From Brevibacillus humidisoli (lineage in GTDB: Bacteria; Bacillota; Bacilli; Brevibacillales; Brevibacillaceae): DNA of 64,000 nucleotides. Position 1 is the stretch's first letter. The number at the start of each line of letters is the position of its first letter. The position numbers and the translations under genes are program-made. Shown piece after piece: positions 8,094-64,000 of this stretch. The stretch is from positions 2,685,970 through 2,749,969 of the forward strand of contig NZ_CP087263.1 in the NCBI RefSeq assembly GCF_020923435.1, read 5' to 3'. Below the pieces are notes generated by a model. The model saw only the letters and a program-made list of their open reading frames with translations, did not search any database and was not told the DNA's origin.

Positions 8094-9506
8094 TTACTCT
8101 GATGGCTGTTTTTGTGATGGCTGCTGCTGTGACTGCTCCTCCTGTGATTGTTGCTTCTGCAAAAAACTCACATACCTCTCGATGTAGAGGAGCACCCCGT
8201 CTTGCACCTGCCAGGCATACGATTGGACGTTGGCAGTATTAGCTTTACTAAAAGCAGTCATGGCCTGATTGAGACCGCTAACCATCTCTGTGATCGGTGC
8301 TTTCCACTCCTCAGGAAGAACGGGCTGGAGCAGACGATTTTGTTCGAGAAAACGAAGGTGCAGTTCTTTCAGCTTCGTCTCTTCCTCCCCGGCGGATGAG
8401 GCGGCTCCCGGCTGTGTCAACCGTTGTGCCGACCATTCCGTTAACAAATCAACCAGTTGGGCTCCTGTGGAAAAAAAGGACTGCAGTGATTGTTCCTCCA
8501 AGACTGCTGGATCCTCTGCCGTCTTTTTCTCTGGAATGTCCAGCTGTCCGCTAAACCCGGGAAATGTCACTTCTTTCACGTAGACATCGATCGCCTTTTC
8601 TTTGAGCACGCTGGCGATCCCCAGAATCTCGTCCCGGGATGGTGCGGCAGCAACAAACAAGTAATGCTGGCCGTCCTGCGCATACAGCAGTTGCGGGTAC
8701 CCCTGCTTTTCCAGTGATTCCATCGCGATCTCCGCCGATGCCGCATCCTGAAACGCCCCTACCTGCGCCATAAACGCGTGCAGTTCCGGCAGTTGAAGCG
8801 GTTCTCCTGCACCCTCCTGTGAAACAGGTGCCTCGTCAGGCTTCTCTCCCGCTGCATCCATCTGGTTCGCTTCCGCCTGCTCAGCCTGCCCATCCTCCGG
8901 TGCAGCTGTCAATGTCTGCATCGTCCCATCCAGTACATATCGGTACGATTGACTCAGCTTGTCATCTGAAAAAATACTAAGTACGATAAAACCAAAGCAG
9001 AGTCCGATCGCGACAGCGCTGGCAGAAGCAATCAACATCTTGGCCCAGTTCCGCTGATCGAAGAATCTCCCCCCGCCAAACTGCGATTTCTTGCTGATCC
9101 GCCCTGTCAGCAATCCATGCTCCAGTTCCTGATCCGACCATTCAACACCCCAGCCACTGCCATTGTCCCATGTTGGCCTTTCGTTCCGTTCATTGTGTCC
9201 TGCATTGACGTCCTCCGCAATACGTGTGCTGCGTAGTTGAGACAGCCGTTCGGTTGCTTCCGATATCCCTGGCCCGACAGAGGACTCTCCCTGCTCCGTT
9301 TGTAGTGTGTCGTCACGATTCAACTGCTCTCCTGTCGCTGGCGGCACCATCGCCCCGCCTGTCGCTTCCTCTGCAAAAGGAAACGGGAGTTCCTGCCGTT
9401 GTTCGTGTGGACGCCCGACACTCCCCGTCTGTCCCGTCGTTTTTTCCTGTCCATCCAACTGCGTTCCGTTCAGCCTGATCGATATCCGATGTTTTTTTTG
9501 CTCCAA
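8094..9506 (-). CDS. SPOR-domain membrane protein
   Basis: About 470 residues. The first 150 or so are a hydrophilic cytoplasmic region (MEQKKHRISIRLNG at the start). One TM helix follows (IASASAVAIGLCFGFIVLSIF, about 165-190), then an acidic linker. A SPOR-type segment (about 245-320, FMAQVGAFQDAASAEIAMESLEKQG) comes next; in other proteins this fold binds denuded septal or spore peptidoglycan. A helical region and a Gln/Ser-rich tail end the protein. TTG is chosen as start because GAGGAGG lies nine bases upstream. A role at the septum or engulfment membrane is inference. Confidence 0.8.
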   Translation of the reverse strand: MEQKKHRISIRLNGTQLDGQEKTTGQTGSVGRPHEQRQELPFPFAEEATGGAMVPPATGEQLNRDDTLQTEQGESSVGPGISEATERLSQLRSTRIAEDVNAGHNERNERPTWDNGSGWGVEWSDQELEHGLLTGRISKKSQFGGGRFFDQRNWAKMLIASASAVAIGLCFGFIVLSIFSDDKLSQSYRYVLDGTMQTLTAAPEDGQAEQAEANQMDAAGEKPDEAPVSQEGAGEPLQLPELHAFMAQVGAFQDAASAEIAMESLEKQGYPQLLYAQDGQHYLFVAAAPSRDEILGIASVLKEKAIDVYVKEVTFPGFSGQLDIPEKKTAEDPAVLEEQSLQSFFSTGAQLVDLLTEWSAQRLTQPGAASSAGEEETKLKELHLRFLEQNRLLQPVLPEEWKAPITEMVSGLNQAMTAFSKANTANVQSYAWQVQDGVLLYIERYVSFLQKQQSQEEQSQQQPSQKQPSE

Positions 9507-9586
9507 CTCCGCCAACCTCCTCGGTCGCAAGACATCTCGTACTACCAGCTTATGATCCGAGTGGACAGGGTATGACAGGTTGTCAG

Positions 9587-9625
9587 AAAAAAAAGACAAC
9601 CCGCCCTCAAAAACGGCGAGCTGTC
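9587..9625 (-). terminator. Rho-independent terminator of the valS-folC-murC operon
   Basis: An 11-base-pair stem (arms 9615-9625 and 9595-9605 on the plus strand) followed on the minus strand by eight Ts, 33 bases after the murC stop. Confidence 0.88.
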
Positions 9626-9657
9626 AATAAGACCCTGAACGAAAGGTCAACTAATAT

Positions 9658-11064
9658 CTAGGCTTTATTTGATTCCGCTGATTCAGCGACCAGCTGCTCC
9701 GTCAGCCAATACGCAGCCTTCCAGATGTCTCCTGCCCCCATCGTCAACACCAGATCGCCTGGACGAACCTGCTTTAGCAAGTGTTCCTGCACTTCCTCCT
9801 TAGTCGGGATGTACTGGGCAAAGGGGTGACTGTTGGCGCGTATTTTTTCAACCAGCACTTCAGCGCTTACACCGTCAATCTTCTTCTCTCCTGCTGGAGA
9901 ATAGATATCGGTGATAATCACTTCGTTCGCTTCTGCAAATGCCCTGCTGAACTCATCCATTAGAAAAAACGTGCGTGTGTAGCGCTGCGGTTGGAAGATG
10001 GCAATCACACGGCGCCCCGAAGCACTGGCCCCGCTCAATGTCGCGATAATCTCCGTGGGATGATGAGCATAGTCATCGACCACCAGGATGTCGCGCACTT
10101 CGCCGATGATTTGAAAGCGACGTTTTGCGCCACGGAAGGTCTGTAGTGCGGCCGCGATCTGCTCAAACGGCACCCCTGCTTGCAAGCACACGATGATCGC
10201 GGCGAGAGCGTTACAGACGTTATGCCGTCCAGGCACGTTTAACGAGAGGGTACCAAGACACTCTTGTTTGTGCCAGATCAAGCAAGTCGTTTTCCGGTCG
10301 CCGCACGTGATCTCGGTGGCCCGGTATTCAGCCACTGCACACTGTTCCGGATCAATCCCATAGGTGATCAGTTCTTGCTGCAAACTGGTCATCAGTTCAC
10401 GATTGTAGGCGTCGTCTATGCACAGGATCGCTTTCCCGTCCGGTTTGATCCGGCTTAGAAAGCGGGCGTACGCCTGCTTCAGCTTGTCAAAATCACCGTC
10501 GAAATGCTCCAAATGATCCGGCTCGATATTGGTTACAACCGCCAACGCCGGAGAATATTCAAGGAACGAACCGTCACTCTCATCGGCTTCAGCAATCACG
10601 AATTCACTTTTTCCCGCCTTGGCATTGGTCCCCGCGTTCATCAGTTCGCCACCGATGATATAGGTAGGATCAACCCCACACTCTTCCAAGACGTGAGCAA
10701 TCATCGAGGTCGTGGTCGTCTTGCCGTGCGCACCGGCAACCGCGACACCCGTTCGTTCATTTAAGATCCGAGCCAGCATTTGCGAACGGTGCAATAGGGG
10801 GATTCCCTTGGCTTCTGCTGCAGCGATTTCCGGATTTTCTCTGGGAATGCTCGTAGAGTACACAACGAGATCAGCGCCTTCGATATGCGCTGCATCATGT
10901 CCGACCATGACCTGTGCTCCCCGCGCTTGCAATTTTCTGGCTAGATCACTAAGTGCAACGTCAGACCCGGTCACCTTCATGCCCAGGTCGACCAAGACGC
11001 GGGCAATGGCACTCATGCCATAACCGCCGATACCTACGAAGTGGACATGTTGTCGTTGGTCCAC
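9658..11064 (-). CDS. murC: UDP-N-acetylmuramate--L-alanine ligase
   Basis: About 468 residues with the Mur-ligase layout: an N-terminal UDP-binding domain ([16 protein letters not shown]), the ATP loop [11 protein letters not shown], and a C-terminal domain with [10 protein letters not shown]. It adds L-alanine to UDP-MurNAc in the cytoplasm. I take the GTG with AGGTG six bases upstream, which lies just past the folC stop; a GTG three codons earlier overlaps folC by eight bases and is the alternative. It is the last gene of the T-box-led operon. Confidence 0.95.
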
Positions 11065-60139: not shown

Positions 60140-60170
60140 GAGCAGAAACAGATGCGGCCCAATGGACCGC
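60140..60170 (-). terminator. Possible terminator after the HAD gene
   Basis: GCGGTCC and GGGCCGC (complement of 60164-60170 and 60154-60160) pair over a three-base loop, followed by a broken T-rich stretch on the minus strand. Confidence 0.4.
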
Positions 60171-60177
60171 TCTTCGC

Positions 60178-60993
60178 TCATCCTCGTCCCAGCAACAGCA
60201 TTTGCTGCAAGACGCGGGCTACCCCTTGCTCGTCATTCGACAGTGTGATCACATCAGCCTCCTGTTTCAGACGCGTACTGGCATTGCCCATCGCAACACC
60301 TACGGCGGCAGCGGTTACCATCTCAAGGTCATTTTGCTCATTGCCAATCGCCATGATCTGTACCCAGGTAAGCCCCATCAACGGTAAAAGCTTGCCAATG
60401 CCGATACTTTTATTCACGCCCTTGTGGACGATCTCGATGCCCCGCGGAGAGTCCCGAATCATGCTAAAAATCGCCGTCCAGTGCTGGAAGCGATGATAGA
60501 GTTGGTCAATCCGCTCCGGTTCATCGATGATCACGATCTTCATCGGCGCAACGTCGATCCGTGAGAGCTGGCCCACCCCCACTTCCGTATAGTCTACCTG
60601 ATGAATGGCCGAAAAACGGATCGTTTCCTCTGTCGCCGCCTGGACGTACAAATGATCATCTACATACACCTTGACATAGCAGCCCATTGCTTCTGCTTCT
60701 CGCAAAAACATTTGGGCTTTGGTGAGGGGCAGTGGTCTTTTCCAGAGCGGCTGCTCCTCACCTGGTCGGGCAACAAATGCACCGTTATAGGCAACGATAG
60801 GGATCTCTAGTCCGACCTGTTCGGCAATCATTGCCGTCGATCGATAGGTCCTGCCGCTGGCCAGTACAACCTGTATGCCGGCCTTCCTCACCGCTTGCAG
60901 CGTATCGACCGTATCCTGATGCAGTTGGCTATCCCGGTCCAGCAATGTACCGTCAATATCGATGGCAACCAGCTTGATGTCCTTATTGTTCAT
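60178..60993 (-). CDS. Cof-type HAD phosphatase
   Basis: 271 residues. HAD motifs: DIDGTLLDRD (I), LASGRTYRS (II), VNKSIGIGKLL (III, Lys) and IGNEQNDLEM (IV). The large C2-type cap points to the Cof/YidA group, which dephosphorylates sugar phosphates and other small phosphoesters. Its ATG overlaps the HPr-like gene stop (ATGA), so it is coupled to the sugar-acid operon; it may remove a pathway phosphate. Substrate unknown. Confidence 0.88.
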   Translation of the reverse strand: MNNKDIKLVAIDIDGTLLDRDSQLHQDTVDTLQAVRKAGIQVVLASGRTYRSTAMIAEQVGLEIPIVAYNGAFVARPGEEQPLWKRPLPLTKAQMFLREAEAMGCYVKVYVDDHLYVQAATEETIRFSAIHQVDYTEVGVGQLSRIDVAPMKIVIIDEPERIDQLYHRFQHWTAIFSMIRDSPRGIEIVHKGVNKSIGIGKLLPLMGLTWVQIMAIGNEQNDLEMVTAAAVGVAMGNASTRLKQEADVITLSNDEQGVARVLQQMLLLGRG

Positions 60994-61253
60994 CCATGAT
61001 CACCGTCAACCAACAGTCGCTCCAGACAGGCAATGGCTTCTCGTTCATCGGGACCGTCGGCTGCTATCACAACTTCGTCTCCCTTTTTCACCGCCAGCGA
61101 CATGATCCCGACAATGCTTTTCCCGTTGACTGACTTGCCCCCGTTGCTGATGGAAATCTCGCCTGTAAACGAAGTGGCCTTCTGTGCAAATGCAGCGGCA
61201 GGTCGGGCGTGCAGCCCCTGTTCCAGTTGGACGACAATCTTTTTCTCTATCAT
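60990..61253 (-). CDS. HPr-like phosphocarrier protein
   Basis: 87 residues, full HPr length. The active-site His lies in QGLHARPAAAFAQ and the regulatory Ser in NGKSIVGIMSLAV. Both the PEP-dependent and the HPr-kinase sites look intact. No EI (ptsI) gene is adjacent; it sits between the KDGP aldolase and HAD genes. It may be a dedicated carrier for the neighbouring transporter, or a Crh-like regulator. Start taken at ATG (MIEKKIVVQL); a few codons upstream are in frame. Confidence 0.88.
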   Translation of the reverse strand: MIEKKIVVQLEQGLHARPAAAFAQKATSFTGEISISNGGKSVNGKSIVGIMSLAVKKGDEVVIAADGPDEREAIACLERLLVDGDHG

Positions 61254-61289
61254 GTCGATCACCACTCCCATCCATCAAACGTATCTTTC

Positions 61290-62012
61290 TTACGATATGG
61301 CCCGCAGCAACTGACGAATATCCTCTATCCGTGTCAATCCAGTAGATTTGTCAACAATAGCCGTATAGACATGCGGAATCACTTGTTCCATACCATTTTC
61401 CAGACACACCTGTACGACCTGGCCGATCGTCTGTACATCAATCCCGCCTGTTGGCTCAAAGATGCGGATCTGGTGACGGACAGCAGCCTTTACCATCTCA
61501 ACCACTTCGTCCAGCCTGTCAACACCGTTGATCGGATAAAATTTGACCGAAGGGATGCCCATCTCCGCCAGCATCGCACACGCTGCGTCACAAGATATCG
61601 GATCGGGATAAGCCTGACTTTGCGGACCGGTGGAAACGATCACGTTACCTGGTGTGCCGCTGGGAGTAATCAGGGCATTCACGATCGTCTGAGCGCTCCC
61701 AACACTCTGCAATCGGGCCAGCGTATAGCCGGCAGCAGGAAATACCTGATTAACATGCTCCGGCTTGGTTCGTTCGGCCACCTCCGCCACTTTCGCCCAT
61801 TGACTGGGATCACCTGCCCCCAAGCCTACTGAGACCGGGATCTTGGCCTGCTGATATTGACGTACGACGTCAACAGCCGCTTCGACGGTTGGGTACGGCT
61901 TCACCATCAGTCCGATCAATACGTTGCCCTCTGTCTCCTCTACAATCGCTTTCGCATTCTCTACATCCCTGGCAAGTACGTTCAGTCTCACCTGTTGCTT
62001 TCTCTCTGTCAC
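61290..62012 (-). CDS. 2-dehydro-3-deoxy-phosphogluconate aldolase family protein, DgaF-like
   Basis: 240 residues, TIM-barrel aldolase of the KDGP/DgaF type (NVLIGLMVKPYPTVEAAVDVV, SVGLGAGDPSQW, SVKFYPINGVDRLDEV with the Schiff-base Lys, IFEPTGGID). DgaF of Salmonella cleaves KDGP to pyruvate and glyceraldehyde 3-phosphate at the end of D-glucosaminate breakdown. GTG start after GAGGAG; it overlaps the upstream lyase stop by four bases. Confidence 0.87.
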   Translation of the reverse strand: MTERKQQVRLNVLARDVENAKAIVEETEGNVLIGLMVKPYPTVEAAVDVVRQYQQAKIPVSVGLGAGDPSQWAKVAEVAERTKPEHVNQVFPAAGYTLARLQSVGSAQTIVNALITPSGTPGNVIVSTGPQSQAYPDPISCDAACAMLAEMGIPSVKFYPINGVDRLDEVVEMVKAAVRHQIRIFEPTGGIDVQTIGQVVQVCLENGMEQVIPHVYTAIVDKSTGLTRIEDIRQLLRAIS

Positions 62013-63133
62013 TGGTTTTTCTCCTCTCCTGGATTGGCGAAAATCGCTCTGATCCGCTCCAGAATGATCTGTTCCTGGTCTTGGAACAAGGGGCGCGGAT
62101 CGATGTTGATCACCCCTAGGTTGGCATAGTGATTGCGGGTATAGATAGCGGGATTGCCAGCCTCCAGTCGGCGGATCACCGCATACGCATCTATCCCGGC
62201 CACTTCTCTGTCTATGGTGAGTTGTGCCCGGTAGATGGGGCGACCTGCCTCATCCTGAATCACACGGGCGCTCACACCAGACAGCTCGTTGATTCTCTCC
62301 GCCAGCCACTCCATCCGTTTTCGTTGCTGCTCGGCCTCCGCTTCGGTGCGGTCGTATCGGGCTAGGGCAGCCAGTAGACCGATGATCGCTTCCTTCCCTA
62401 CTTTCATAGCGCGGCCGATCCCCTTGTACTGGGCGCGACACGCTTCGATCAGGTTGGCTCGACCGCAGATCAGACCGGATGTCGGTCCGCCAATCGCCTT
62501 TCCCCCGCTGTAGATCACCAGATCGGCACCTGCCTGCACATAACGGGTCAGATCTTCTTCGGCGGCCGCATCGACGATCAAGGGAAGGGCGTGACGATGT
62601 GCAACGGCTAGCATCGTCTCGAGGGACTGCATCCCTTTTTGCACGGCATGATGGGATTTGATATATAGCAGGGCAACGGTTCGTTCGTTGATCGCCGCCT
62701 CGATGTGCGCTGCTTCCACCAGATTGGCGTGGCCTGCTTCCACTACCTTGCCCCCGCCCAACCGAACCATCTGTGCGACCGATCCGCCAAAGTGAACCGC
62801 ATGCCCTTTTTGCACGATCACCTCATTGGCCAGTCCTTCTGATAAAGGAAGTTGCTCAATCAAGCGAAGATTGGTCCCGGCAATCACCGCAGCGGTTGAG
62901 ATGGCGATCCCCGCGGCTGCGCCCAAGGTAGGACAGCCATCTTCCGCACCCGTTGCAGCGGCGATTTTTTGGCCGGCTGCTTTGATTAATGCGGCGATAT
63001 CCACGTACTCCATCGCTGCTTCCCCCATCGCCTGGGCGACAGAAGGGTGGACAGCACTGGCTCCCAGTGCTGTCATCTTGCCGCTTGCATTGATCACCTG
63101 GCGCAAACCGTAGCGTTGGTAAATGTTCATCAT
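62009..63133 (-). CDS. PLP-dependent DgaE-like ammonia-lyase (SelA superfamily)
   Basis: 374 residues. SelA-like fold; the PLP lysine lies in DLVIYSGGKAIGGPTSGLI, with VINASGKMTALGASAVHPSV at the N-terminus and LPLIVDAAAEEDLTRYV before it. It resembles D-glucosaminate-6-phosphate ammonia-lyase DgaE, which forms KDGP, the substrate of the aldolase encoded next. The true substrate may be another 2-amino sugar acid. Two ATGs in tandem follow GGCGGG; stop and next start overlap. Confidence 0.85.
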   Translation of the reverse strand: MMNIYQRYGLRQVINASGKMTALGASAVHPSVAQAMGEAAMEYVDIAALIKAAGQKIAAATGAEDGCPTLGAAAGIAISTAAVIAGTNLRLIEQLPLSEGLANEVIVQKGHAVHFGGSVAQMVRLGGGKVVEAGHANLVEAAHIEAAINERTVALLYIKSHHAVQKGMQSLETMLAVAHRHALPLIVDAAAEEDLTRYVQAGADLVIYSGGKAIGGPTSGLICGRANLIEACRAQYKGIGRAMKVGKEAIIGLLAALARYDRTEAEAEQQRKRMEWLAERINELSGVSARVIQDEAGRPIYRAQLTIDREVAGIDAYAVIRRLEAGNPAIYTRNHYANLGVINIDPRPLFQDQEQIILERIRAIFANPGEEKNQ

Positions 63134-63155
63134 CTGTCCCGCCTTTGTTTCAAAC

Positions 63156-63812
63156 CTATTGGGTGGCGATAGGGAAGATCGCTCCCAGCAGCATCGCCCC
63201 GAGTATCGCTCCGCCCGCGATTGGTTTTTTGTAATAGTAGAAGACAGCCGCTCCGATTGTGGCTCCGATGCCTACCGGGATGGAAGCCATAATCGCCGAG
63301 ATGACGATCAGTGGGCCAAGATAACGGCCGGCCGCATTTCCCGCTCCCATCATCACATCTGCTCCAAACGTAGAGTTGGCCGAATTGATCGTAAACTTGC
63401 GTATCAAGATAATCACGCCACCGATCAAAAGCCCCAGTCCGGCTCCTGTGAGCAGAGCGAGCGGGAACGAAGTAAGCGGAGCCGTAATTCCTGCTCCCAG
63501 CAGCATCGCCGGGATCCCGATCCCTACACCTGTCTGTAAGGAACCGCCAATGTCAAGAATCCCCACCAGCGGCCCTTCCAGGACGCGGGCAAATAAGAAG
63601 CTGGCACCAAACGCAGCTGCCGCGCCAAAACTGCCTCCCTTTAACCCTGCTTCCAGCATGGCCACGACCGCAATGTCGTTAAAGGCCCCTACACGGTAGA
63701 CGTAATAGAGATGAGTCCCGGCAAAAATACCTGCCGACAAGAAAGCCACAAACAGCGGAAAAGCCCATTCGGAATACCAGAAACCTTTCGTCTGTTGATT
63801 GGTTGTTTCCAT
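63156..63812 (-). CDS. DUF4310-like integral membrane protein
   Basis: 218 residues with six or seven Gly/Ala-rich TM helices (LFVAFLSAGIFAGTHLYYVY, GGSFGAAAAFGASFLFARVL, FPLALLTGAGLGLLIGGVIILI, AIMASIPVGIGATIGAAVFYYY). DUF4310 proteins occur with DUF4311/DUF4312 proteins and the DgaE/DgaF-like enzymes; their role is not established. Position fits a transporter for the sugar acid that the two enzymes degrade. The ATG is two bases after the preceding stop. Confidence 0.75.
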   Translation of the reverse strand: METTNQQTKGFWYSEWAFPLFVAFLSAGIFAGTHLYYVYRVGAFNDIAVVAMLEAGLKGGSFGAAAAFGASFLFARVLEGPLVGILDIGGSLQTGVGIGIPAMLLGAGITAPLTSFPLALLTGAGLGLLIGGVIILIRKFTINSANSTFGADVMMGAGNAAGRYLGPLIVISAIMASIPVGIGATIGAAVFYYYKKPIAGGAILGAMLLGAIFPIATQ

Positions 63813-63814
63813 CC

Positions 63815-64000
63815 TTATTTCACCACCGATCCAAAGAATTTGTGCAGATCAATCAGCCATTGTGGCACGTCAACATCGATGCTGTGCAGCAGAGCCGCAT
63901 CGAATCCACGGAAGAATCCACTCAGGACGAACAGCAGCACAACGGCTGTCACCATCGTTTTGGTGAGGCGATTCCAGCCGCTATCATCCACCCCTTTGCC
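63815..64000 (-). CDS. DUF4311-like membrane protein (C-terminal 61 residues; continues past the window)
   Basis: Only the end is present: a loop, one TM helix (TKTMVTAVVLLFVLSGFFRGF) and an amphipathic tail (HSIDVDVPQWLIDLHKFFGSVVK). It abuts the DUF4310 gene. I assign DUF4311 mainly from position, because these families occur as neighbours; the fragment alone is not diagnostic. Confidence 0.55.
   Translation of the reverse strand, partial: GKGVDDSGWNRLTKTMVTAVVLLFVLSGFFRGFDAALLHSIDVDVPQWLIDLHKFFGSVVK

Follow-up and report, generated by a model that had tools for sequence, protein, structure and literature searches.

Six tightly packed genes close the 64,000-nucleotide window analyzed here, which covers contig positions 2685970-2749969 of Brevibacillus humidisoli (RefSeq assembly GCF_020923435.1, contig NZ_CP087263.1; genome of 4.9 Mb on a single contig). 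They form the downstream half of a longer cassette, whose families are known and unexplained and which ends in genes for the phosphotransferase system (PTS) protein HPr and a HAD phosphatase. Our subject is the five-gene core of this cassette, PRD-SFCGS-DUF4312-DUF4311-DUF4310, as a possible PTS transport module. The six packed or overlapping genes described in the initial annotation proved real, with gaps of 2-22 bases or overlaps of 4 bases and with families assigned by Pfam and NCBIfam. The features of the window and of the upstream genes are as follows.

60154..60170, minus strand: terminator-like hairpin directly 3' of the HAD gene, a possible operon end
60178-60993, minus strand: HAD (Cof-type) phosphatase (PF08282, 198 bits)
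60990-61271, minus strand: HPr (PF00381, 103 bits), 4-base overlap with the HAD gene
61290-62012, minus strand: DgaF/EF_0839-type 2-keto-3-deoxy-6-phosphogluconate (KDPG) aldolase (TIGR03581, 301 bits, cut-off 222), 18-base gap to HPr
62009-63133, minus strand: DgaE-type pyridoxal phosphate (PLP) ammonia lyase (TIGR01437, 488.7 vs 385.3 bits), 4-base overlap with DgaF
63156-63812, minus strand: DUF4310 (EF_0833) membrane protein (353 bits), 22-base gap to DgaE
63815-64000, minus strand: C-terminal part of the DUF4311 (EF_0832) membrane protein (402 bits), 2-base gap to DUF4310
Outside the window, minus strand: DUF4312 (EF_0831), scoring 85.4, below the NCBIfam cut-off of 89.65 and above the Pfam cut-off
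Outside the window, minus strand: SFCGS (EF_0830), a glycine-rich protein that passes the curated NCBIfam cut-off
Outside the window, minus strand: lone PRD domain (EF_0829), scoring 47.8, below the NCBIfam cut-off of 69.35 (Pfam PRD 30.7 bits, cut-off 23)
Contig 2751682-2752814, minus strand: amidohydrolase, EF_0837-type, frameshifted, both halves below the NCBIfam cut-off
Outside the window, minus strand: BglG-type regulator of 668 residues with three PRD stretches

The DUF4311 gene starts outside the window, and the full gene occupies contig positions 2749784-2750569; its closest named match was from Brevibacillus migulae (89%). Going upstream from DUF4311 on the same strand, the genes for DUF4312, SFCGS, the lone PRD, the amidohydrolase, and the BglG-type regulator follow, and the regulator end of the operon lies at contig position 2754780. 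SFCGS, DUF4311, DUF4310, and DgaF all scored above their curated NCBIfam cut-offs. Terminator-like sites numbered 16 vs 8.8 in shuffles. A promoter-like site was found 5' of the BglG-type gene, and it carries little meaning because such sites numbered 7 vs 6.9 in shuffles. The amidohydrolase of this genome is split over two frames, with the shift in or close to a stretch of five A; either a genuine mutation or a sequencing error could account for the break. A long amidohydrolase open reading frame (ORF, >330 residues) was present in every gene-bearing locus but the window's (n=76).

Neither an enzyme II (EII) gene nor a kinase gene was found in the operon formed by the window genes and the upstream genes. 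The lack of an EII at the locus, noted at the outset within the window, thus extends to the genes just upstream. The initial annotation had also proposed to look there for DUF4312, an EIIB-like protein or a kinase, and held that the gene that phosphorylates the substrate may lie upstream. DUF4312 was found there; the substrate-phosphorylating gene was not, with neither a kinase nor an EII among these genes. No gene of the window cassette scored above the cut-off for any Pfam EII family, and a sub-threshold PTS_IIB match (18.4 vs 23.6 bits) lay inside the BglG-type regulator.

To compare the cassette across genomes, we used a DUF4311 alignment that yielded 79 loci, the best of 501 relatives, with flanks of up to 10 kb. 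These loci are biased to near relatives of the window and span three phyla (Bacillota, Actinomycetota, and Pseudomonadota). Counts are given for 80 loci (the window's and these 79) or for 84 (with four more). Gene order was recounted with profiles of the five families, since gene calls in GC-rich loci were crude. The order PRD-SFCGS-DUF4312-DUF4311-DUF4310 was fixed in 84/84 loci. The PRD gene, found in 73/80 loci by a one-sequence search, was found in 84/84 by profile. Two single-ORF fusions occurred, PRD-SFCGS in L100 and SFCGS-DUF4312 in L088. In a 398-genome sample of the phylum, the 7 genomes with DUF4311 above its cut-off were also those with SFCGS above its own. The enzyme genes were more mobile than the module and lay 5' or 3' of it; DgaE was present in 75/80 loci, the amidohydrolase in 76/80, and DgaF in 65/80. 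Four loci (L014, L040, L059, and L061) carried the module with none of these three enzymes in the flanks, and HPr still adjoined the enzyme-free module in L014 and L040.

Weak DUF4311 matches in L009-L011 were set aside, as they lay in ORFs that look unrelated; the E. coli control genome gave a weak match as well. Some module genes were interrupted or repeated. A single TAG splits DUF4311 into two ORFs in the L100 cassette that has the PRD-SFCGS fusion (9105-9821). Brevibacillus daliensis carries a second partial cassette (amidohydrolase, SFCGS, and DUF4312) upstream of the first (L020, 1814-4051), and a Tessaracoccus locus has a second SFCGS copy 3' of DgaF (L070, 13375-13800).

The window HPr retains the histidine of LHARPA and the serine of KSIVG, as first read, and inspection by eye showed the active-site His and regulatory Ser to be kept in 24/24 cassette HPrs. 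An HPr gene was present in 24/80 loci, always on the cassette strand (24/24). A rough chance estimate predicted about 1.2, based on 23 genomes, many of them picked for HPr in the locus, with each locus taken as 20.8 kb. The initial annotation had tied its proposal to HPr recurring beside DUF4310. It does so in a minority of loci, at about 20 times rough chance, with enzyme I (EI) joining it in 8/80. The position of HPr varied between groups. It lay 3' of DgaF in the window's locus, in five related ones from Brevibacillus, and in a sixth labeled Anoxybacillus; 5' of the regulator in Paenibacillus and Saccharibacillus; and 3' of DgaE in Streptomyces, where DgaE of L060 carried HPr fused at its C-terminal end. 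Each of the four Streptomyces genomes had one EI and two HPr genes, the cassette copy included. Four Streptomyces loci kept HPr though they had no BglG-type match, which argues that HPr is not there solely for that regulator. In one of these loci, a CdaR-type regulator, which has a sugar diacid recognition domain, precedes the cassette (L060, 3682-4890). The genome of the window itself had seven HPr-like matches and a single EI.

A tree was built from 44 HPr domains, of which cassettes supplied 21; the cassette sets occupied three separate positions. HPr was therefore probably taken up into the cassette more than once, judging from these sequences. The tree is short, with 13/41 inner branches well supported and a program warning of long branches, and 8 rows were dropped beforehand, including three cassette HPrs (L026, L027, and L031). 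The Brevibacillus group also enclosed two HPrs from outside cassettes (L106 and L107).

EI adjoined HPr in 8/80 loci, all from Paenibacillus, and 7 of these had an unbroken HPr-EI-regulator chain. Paenibacillus genomes with a cassette EI had 3-4 EI genes in total. In L099, HPr and EI lay 3' of the HAD gene at the cassette end. EI was present in 68/68 distinct cassette genomes tested (16 + 54 genomes with two pairs identical; 14 + 2 of the 79 loci were left out). In the phylum sample, 157/398 genomes had EI, including 7/7 of those with DUF4311 (hypergeometric 0.0014). Genome context thus gives strong support to a PTS link of the module.

The two proteins at the head of the module carry invariant residues that could take part in phosphate transfer. 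HPr phosphorylates PRD histidines. Lone PRD proteins (n=39) shared 31% identity on average, and the sole invariant columns of their alignment were His55, Arg62, Glu107, and His114. Both histidines, which we take to be the PRD phosphorylation sites, were present in 39/39 proteins. SFCGS has an invariant Cys within FCGSGGAGA in 30/30 sequences. Its AlphaFold2 model (predicted local distance difference test, pLDDT, 90) matched RpiB/LacAB sugar-phosphate isomerases best (Foldseek E 8e-4). In the VIA structure comparison, the top match (Z 11.9) superposed 113 residues at 2.6 A. The first 22 entries were all RpiB/LacAB (Z 11.9 to 8.1), and those that followed, mostly response regulators, scored 7.9 or below. 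The predicted fold of SFCGS is thus RpiB-like. An EIIB fold considered for SFCGS was given up in favor of RpiB, with no EIIB among the best 50 VIA matches listed.

His and Cys have active-site roles in RpiB. The SFCGS Cys falls on the RpiB Cys in weak profile alignments (E about 1). At the stretch matching the RpiB His-Asn-Asp, placed by an equally weak alignment (E about 1), His occurred in 1/30 SFCGS sequences. The active-site His of E. coli RpiB is His99, and an H99N mutant appears in the title of 2vvr. From the model, we infer that SFCGS may be an RpiB-fold protein put to another use, most simply as a cysteine phosphocarrier.

The predicted model of the membrane protein DUF4311 was of moderate confidence (pLDDT 79; predicted template modeling score, pTM, 0.66), and its best match in a second structure comparison (VIA) was bestrophin at Z 5.5. 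Profiles of DUF4311, DUF4310, and DUF4312 gave nothing credible against PDB sequences. DUF4310 and DUF4311 were also considered as a duplicated pair, and no homology between the two was found.

The catabolic enzymes belong to a pathway for amino sugar acids. DgaE and DgaF fell below the stricter equivalog cut-offs (447.8 vs 600 bits and 290 vs 300 bits, respectively). The His-His pair of DgaE is kept, with KSHHAVQKGM aligned to residues 162-163 of the Salmonella DGL structures 7lc0/7lce, and the lysine of its SGxKA motif aligns with chain residue 213 of the same structures. PMC9529869 describes the His-His residues of Salmonella DGL and names its lysine Lys-217; the difference from chain residue 213 may be one of numbering. 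DgaF aligned to solved KDPG-type aldolases. The intact amidohydrolase copy of locus L013 has solved relatives 8wzy, 2ics, 2ogj, and 8je0. EF_0837-type amidohydrolases have deacetylase activity. By this analogy, the amidohydrolase in the cassette suggests an N-acyl amino sugar acid as the substrate.

HAD genes were recurrent and not universal, present in 8/80 loci when searched with the window HAD as seed and lying 3' of DgaF in L033, L035, L036, and L099-L101. HAD phosphatases of two Pfam types recur in this position (L043, 13349-14047; L071, 8922-9572; the window; and L099-L101), beside a pathway that requires a phosphate ester. In the Enterococcus rivorum locus, a PTS EIIC (PF02378) and a MupG-type 6-phospho-N-acetylmuramidase lie between DUF4310 and the amidohydrolase (L056, 11603-14342).

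A possible second branch of the module was found in E. coli K-12. The operon yhfZYXW-php-yhfUTS is uncharacterized and has three genes between yhfY and yhfU. In comparisons of family profiles with hhalign, YhfY was homologous to the lone PRD (96.9%). YhfU (DUF2620) proved a full-length homolog of SFCGS (91.8%), with the cysteines of the two families aligned. Four unrelated control pairs stayed below 0.3%. When E. coli proteins were compared singly with the cassette profiles, the values were 10.4%, 0.2%, and 0.3% for YhfT/YhfU and 86% for YhfY. The YhfU Cys was kept in 10/10 sequences; the first YhfY His was kept in 11/11 and the second in 9/11. YhfT occurred in 11 genomes of the phylum sample, EI was present in 11/11 of them, and PRD, YhfU, and YhfT stood side by side in 10/11 loci. 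An HPr gene ends one yhf-type operon (YhfZ-Y-U-T ... Php-S-X-W) of the same phylum as the window (L145, 15671-15997).

The membrane protein of this branch differs from those of the cassette. Profile comparison detected no homology of YhfT to DUF4310 or DUF4311. YhfT as a distant DUF4311 was rejected, with no Pfam DUF4311 match in the whole protein and family profiles at 0.2%, and no DUF4310-DUF4311 fusion was detectable in it either. The YhfU profile gave nine weak matches in the PDB, one of them an RpiB entry, and the best ones were unrelated. A weak Pfam LacAB_rpiB match (E 0.065) and the likeness to SFCGS suggest an RpiB fold for YhfU. The yhf operon and the cassette thus share YhfY with PRD, YhfU with SFCGS, and genomes with EI. 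They differ in YhfT, which shows no detectable homology to DUF4310/DUF4311, in their enzymes, and in DUF4312, which was not noted in the yhf operon. On these sequence comparisons, the pair of PRD and Cys protein is accompanied by one membrane protein type in the cassette and by another in the yhf operon, reminiscent of EIIA/EIIB pairs that work with different EIIC proteins.

Based on these results, we propose that PRD-SFCGS-DUF4312-DUF4311-DUF4310 may be a PTS transport module, built from parts not recognizably related to known EII and feeding DgaE/DgaF, a reading to which we give close to an even chance. Phosphate would pass from phosphoenolpyruvate (PEP) to EI, to the HPr histidine, and to His55/His114 of the lone PRD in an EIIA-like role. 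The PRD would hand it to the invariant Cys of the RpiB-fold SFCGS, which would act like EIIB and phosphorylate the substrate. The DUF4311/DUF4310 membrane pair would carry the substrate, and DUF4312 would have an accessory role. The amidohydrolase would then deacylate a phosphorylated, probably N-acylated 2-amino sugar acid, DgaE would deaminate it to a 2-keto-3-deoxy acid 6-phosphate, and DgaF would split this into pyruvate and glyceraldehyde 3-phosphate. The BglG-type PRD regulator would turn the operon on. The DgaE/DgaF route uses a phosphorylated substrate, and the operon has neither a DgaABCD-type permease nor a kinase; the simplest chain is EI-HPr-PRD-SFCGS-substrate. Gene content and order, the conserved residues, the predicted SFCGS fold, and the association with HPr and EI are observations, on which we infer each phosphotransfer step, the transport itself, what the substrate is, how the operon is regulated, and what DUF4312 and HAD do. 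More tentatively, and at rather less than even chances, the two branches may together represent an undescribed class of PTS permease that shares no recognizable homology with the known EII superfamilies. PRD would stand for EIIA, SFCGS for EIIB, and DUF4311/DUF4310 or YhfT for EIIC. Of the two or more branches of this class, one would include E. coli yhfY, yhfU, and yhfT. The initial annotation had raised the possibility that DUF4310/DUF4311 are a new kind of transporter, perhaps tied to the PTS. Genome context gave the PTS link strong support; transport, passage of phosphate to the substrate, and likeness to EIIC are putative.

Several observations weigh against the proposed module. HPr was absent from 56/80 loci, including three of Brevibacillus (L012, L016, and L020), where a genome-wide HPr could serve. 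The co-occurrence with EI is weakened by the relatedness of the genomes, and EI-positive genomes may be metabolically richer. SFCGS has an isomerase-type fold. A Foldseek search of the PDB with the DUF4311 model gave no significant match (best E 0.87), which speaks neither for nor against an EIIC-like fold. E. coli YhfY is one of the two exceptions without the second PRD histidine. PRD domains are classically regulatory, and PRD together with HPr is the usual toolkit of pure regulation. The PTS link could then be regulatory only. DUF4310/DUF4311 would be ion-driven and import an unphosphorylated substrate, HPr would phosphorylate the lone PRD and the BglG-type regulator and thereby control either expression or the activity of the transporter, and the phosphate ester would come from a kinase encoded elsewhere. 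The lack of an EIIC-like match for the DUF4311 model is consistent with this account, as is a BglG-type match in 71/80 loci, whereas four Streptomyces loci kept HPr with no such match and one of them had it fused to DgaE. A PfkB kinase adjoins DgaE/DgaF in 2/80 loci (L030 and L031), in a search made with one PfkB seed and by reading in which only a few of 93 unlabeled neighbors were checked in Pfam (10 proteins); the window operon has no kinase gene. EI genes within 8 loci are hard to explain by regulation alone, and every tested genome with the module had EI. We consider a purely regulatory link the main rival, somewhat less probable than the proposed module.

SFCGS could also be a sugar-phosphate isomerase of the RpiB/LacAB type that serves the catabolic pathway, with no phosphocarrier involved. 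Its RpiB-like predicted fold (Z 11.9) and the Cys that falls on the RpiB Cys in weak alignments agree with such an enzyme, whereas the scarcity of His (1/30) at the weakly aligned His-Asn-Asp stretch speaks against it. The DgaE/DgaF route requires no isomerase, and SFCGS was retained in loci without DgaE, DgaF, and the amidohydrolase. It always stood between PRD and DUF4312 and was fused to each once. We consider a catabolic isomerase unlikely. Least probable by far is that the HPr gene is a chance neighbor of no functional meaning. Seven HPr-like matches in the window genome and 56/80 loci with no HPr nearby would allow it. Against it stand 24/80 loci vs about 1.2 expected, the same strand in 24/24, three tree places, one fusion, and recurrence in Brevibacillus relatives, Paenibacillus, and Streptomyces.

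The proposed module can be set beside several known systems. The Salmonella PTS permease DgaABCD supplies the phosphorylated substrate to DgaE/DgaF, and the dga operon shares with the cassette a DgaE-type lyase, a DgaF-type aldolase, a phosphorylated amino sugar acid intermediate, and PTS involvement (PMC9529869). The cassette differs in having PRD, SFCGS, DUF4312, DUF4311, and DUF4310 in place of DgaABCD-type genes, in adding the amidohydrolase, and in its DgaE and DgaF below equivalog cut-offs. The NCBIfam families of EF_0829-EF_0839 / AHA_3910-3917 (TIGR03577-TIGR03583) cover all five genes of the module as well as DgaF and the amidohydrolase, whereas the window PRD, DUF4312, and amidohydrolase halves scored below their cut-offs. 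RpiB/LacAB isomerases share the predicted SFCGS fold and, in weak alignments, the conserved Cys position, and appear to differ at the His-Asn-Asp stretch (His in 1/30) and differ in gene context, which for SFCGS is that of the proposed transport module. The gene families are already known, as hypothetical, and the names of the EF_0829-EF_0839 models carry no transport or HPr link. In the open-licence PubMed Central (PMC) papers searched, no mention of DUF4310, DUF4311, or DUF4312 was found, nor of the apparent HPr/EI link, the predicted RpiB fold of SFCGS, or the proposed yhf kinship.

Herein, our findings point to what would be, if true, a new phosphotransferase transporter architecture. They would suggest a role for seven families that so far have none (DUF4310, DUF4311, DUF4312, SFCGS, DUF2620, YhfT, and the EF_0829 PRD family), with a lone PRD used as a phosphocarrier rather than as a regulator domain. 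An uncharacterized operon of E. coli K-12 would thereby become a directly testable system.

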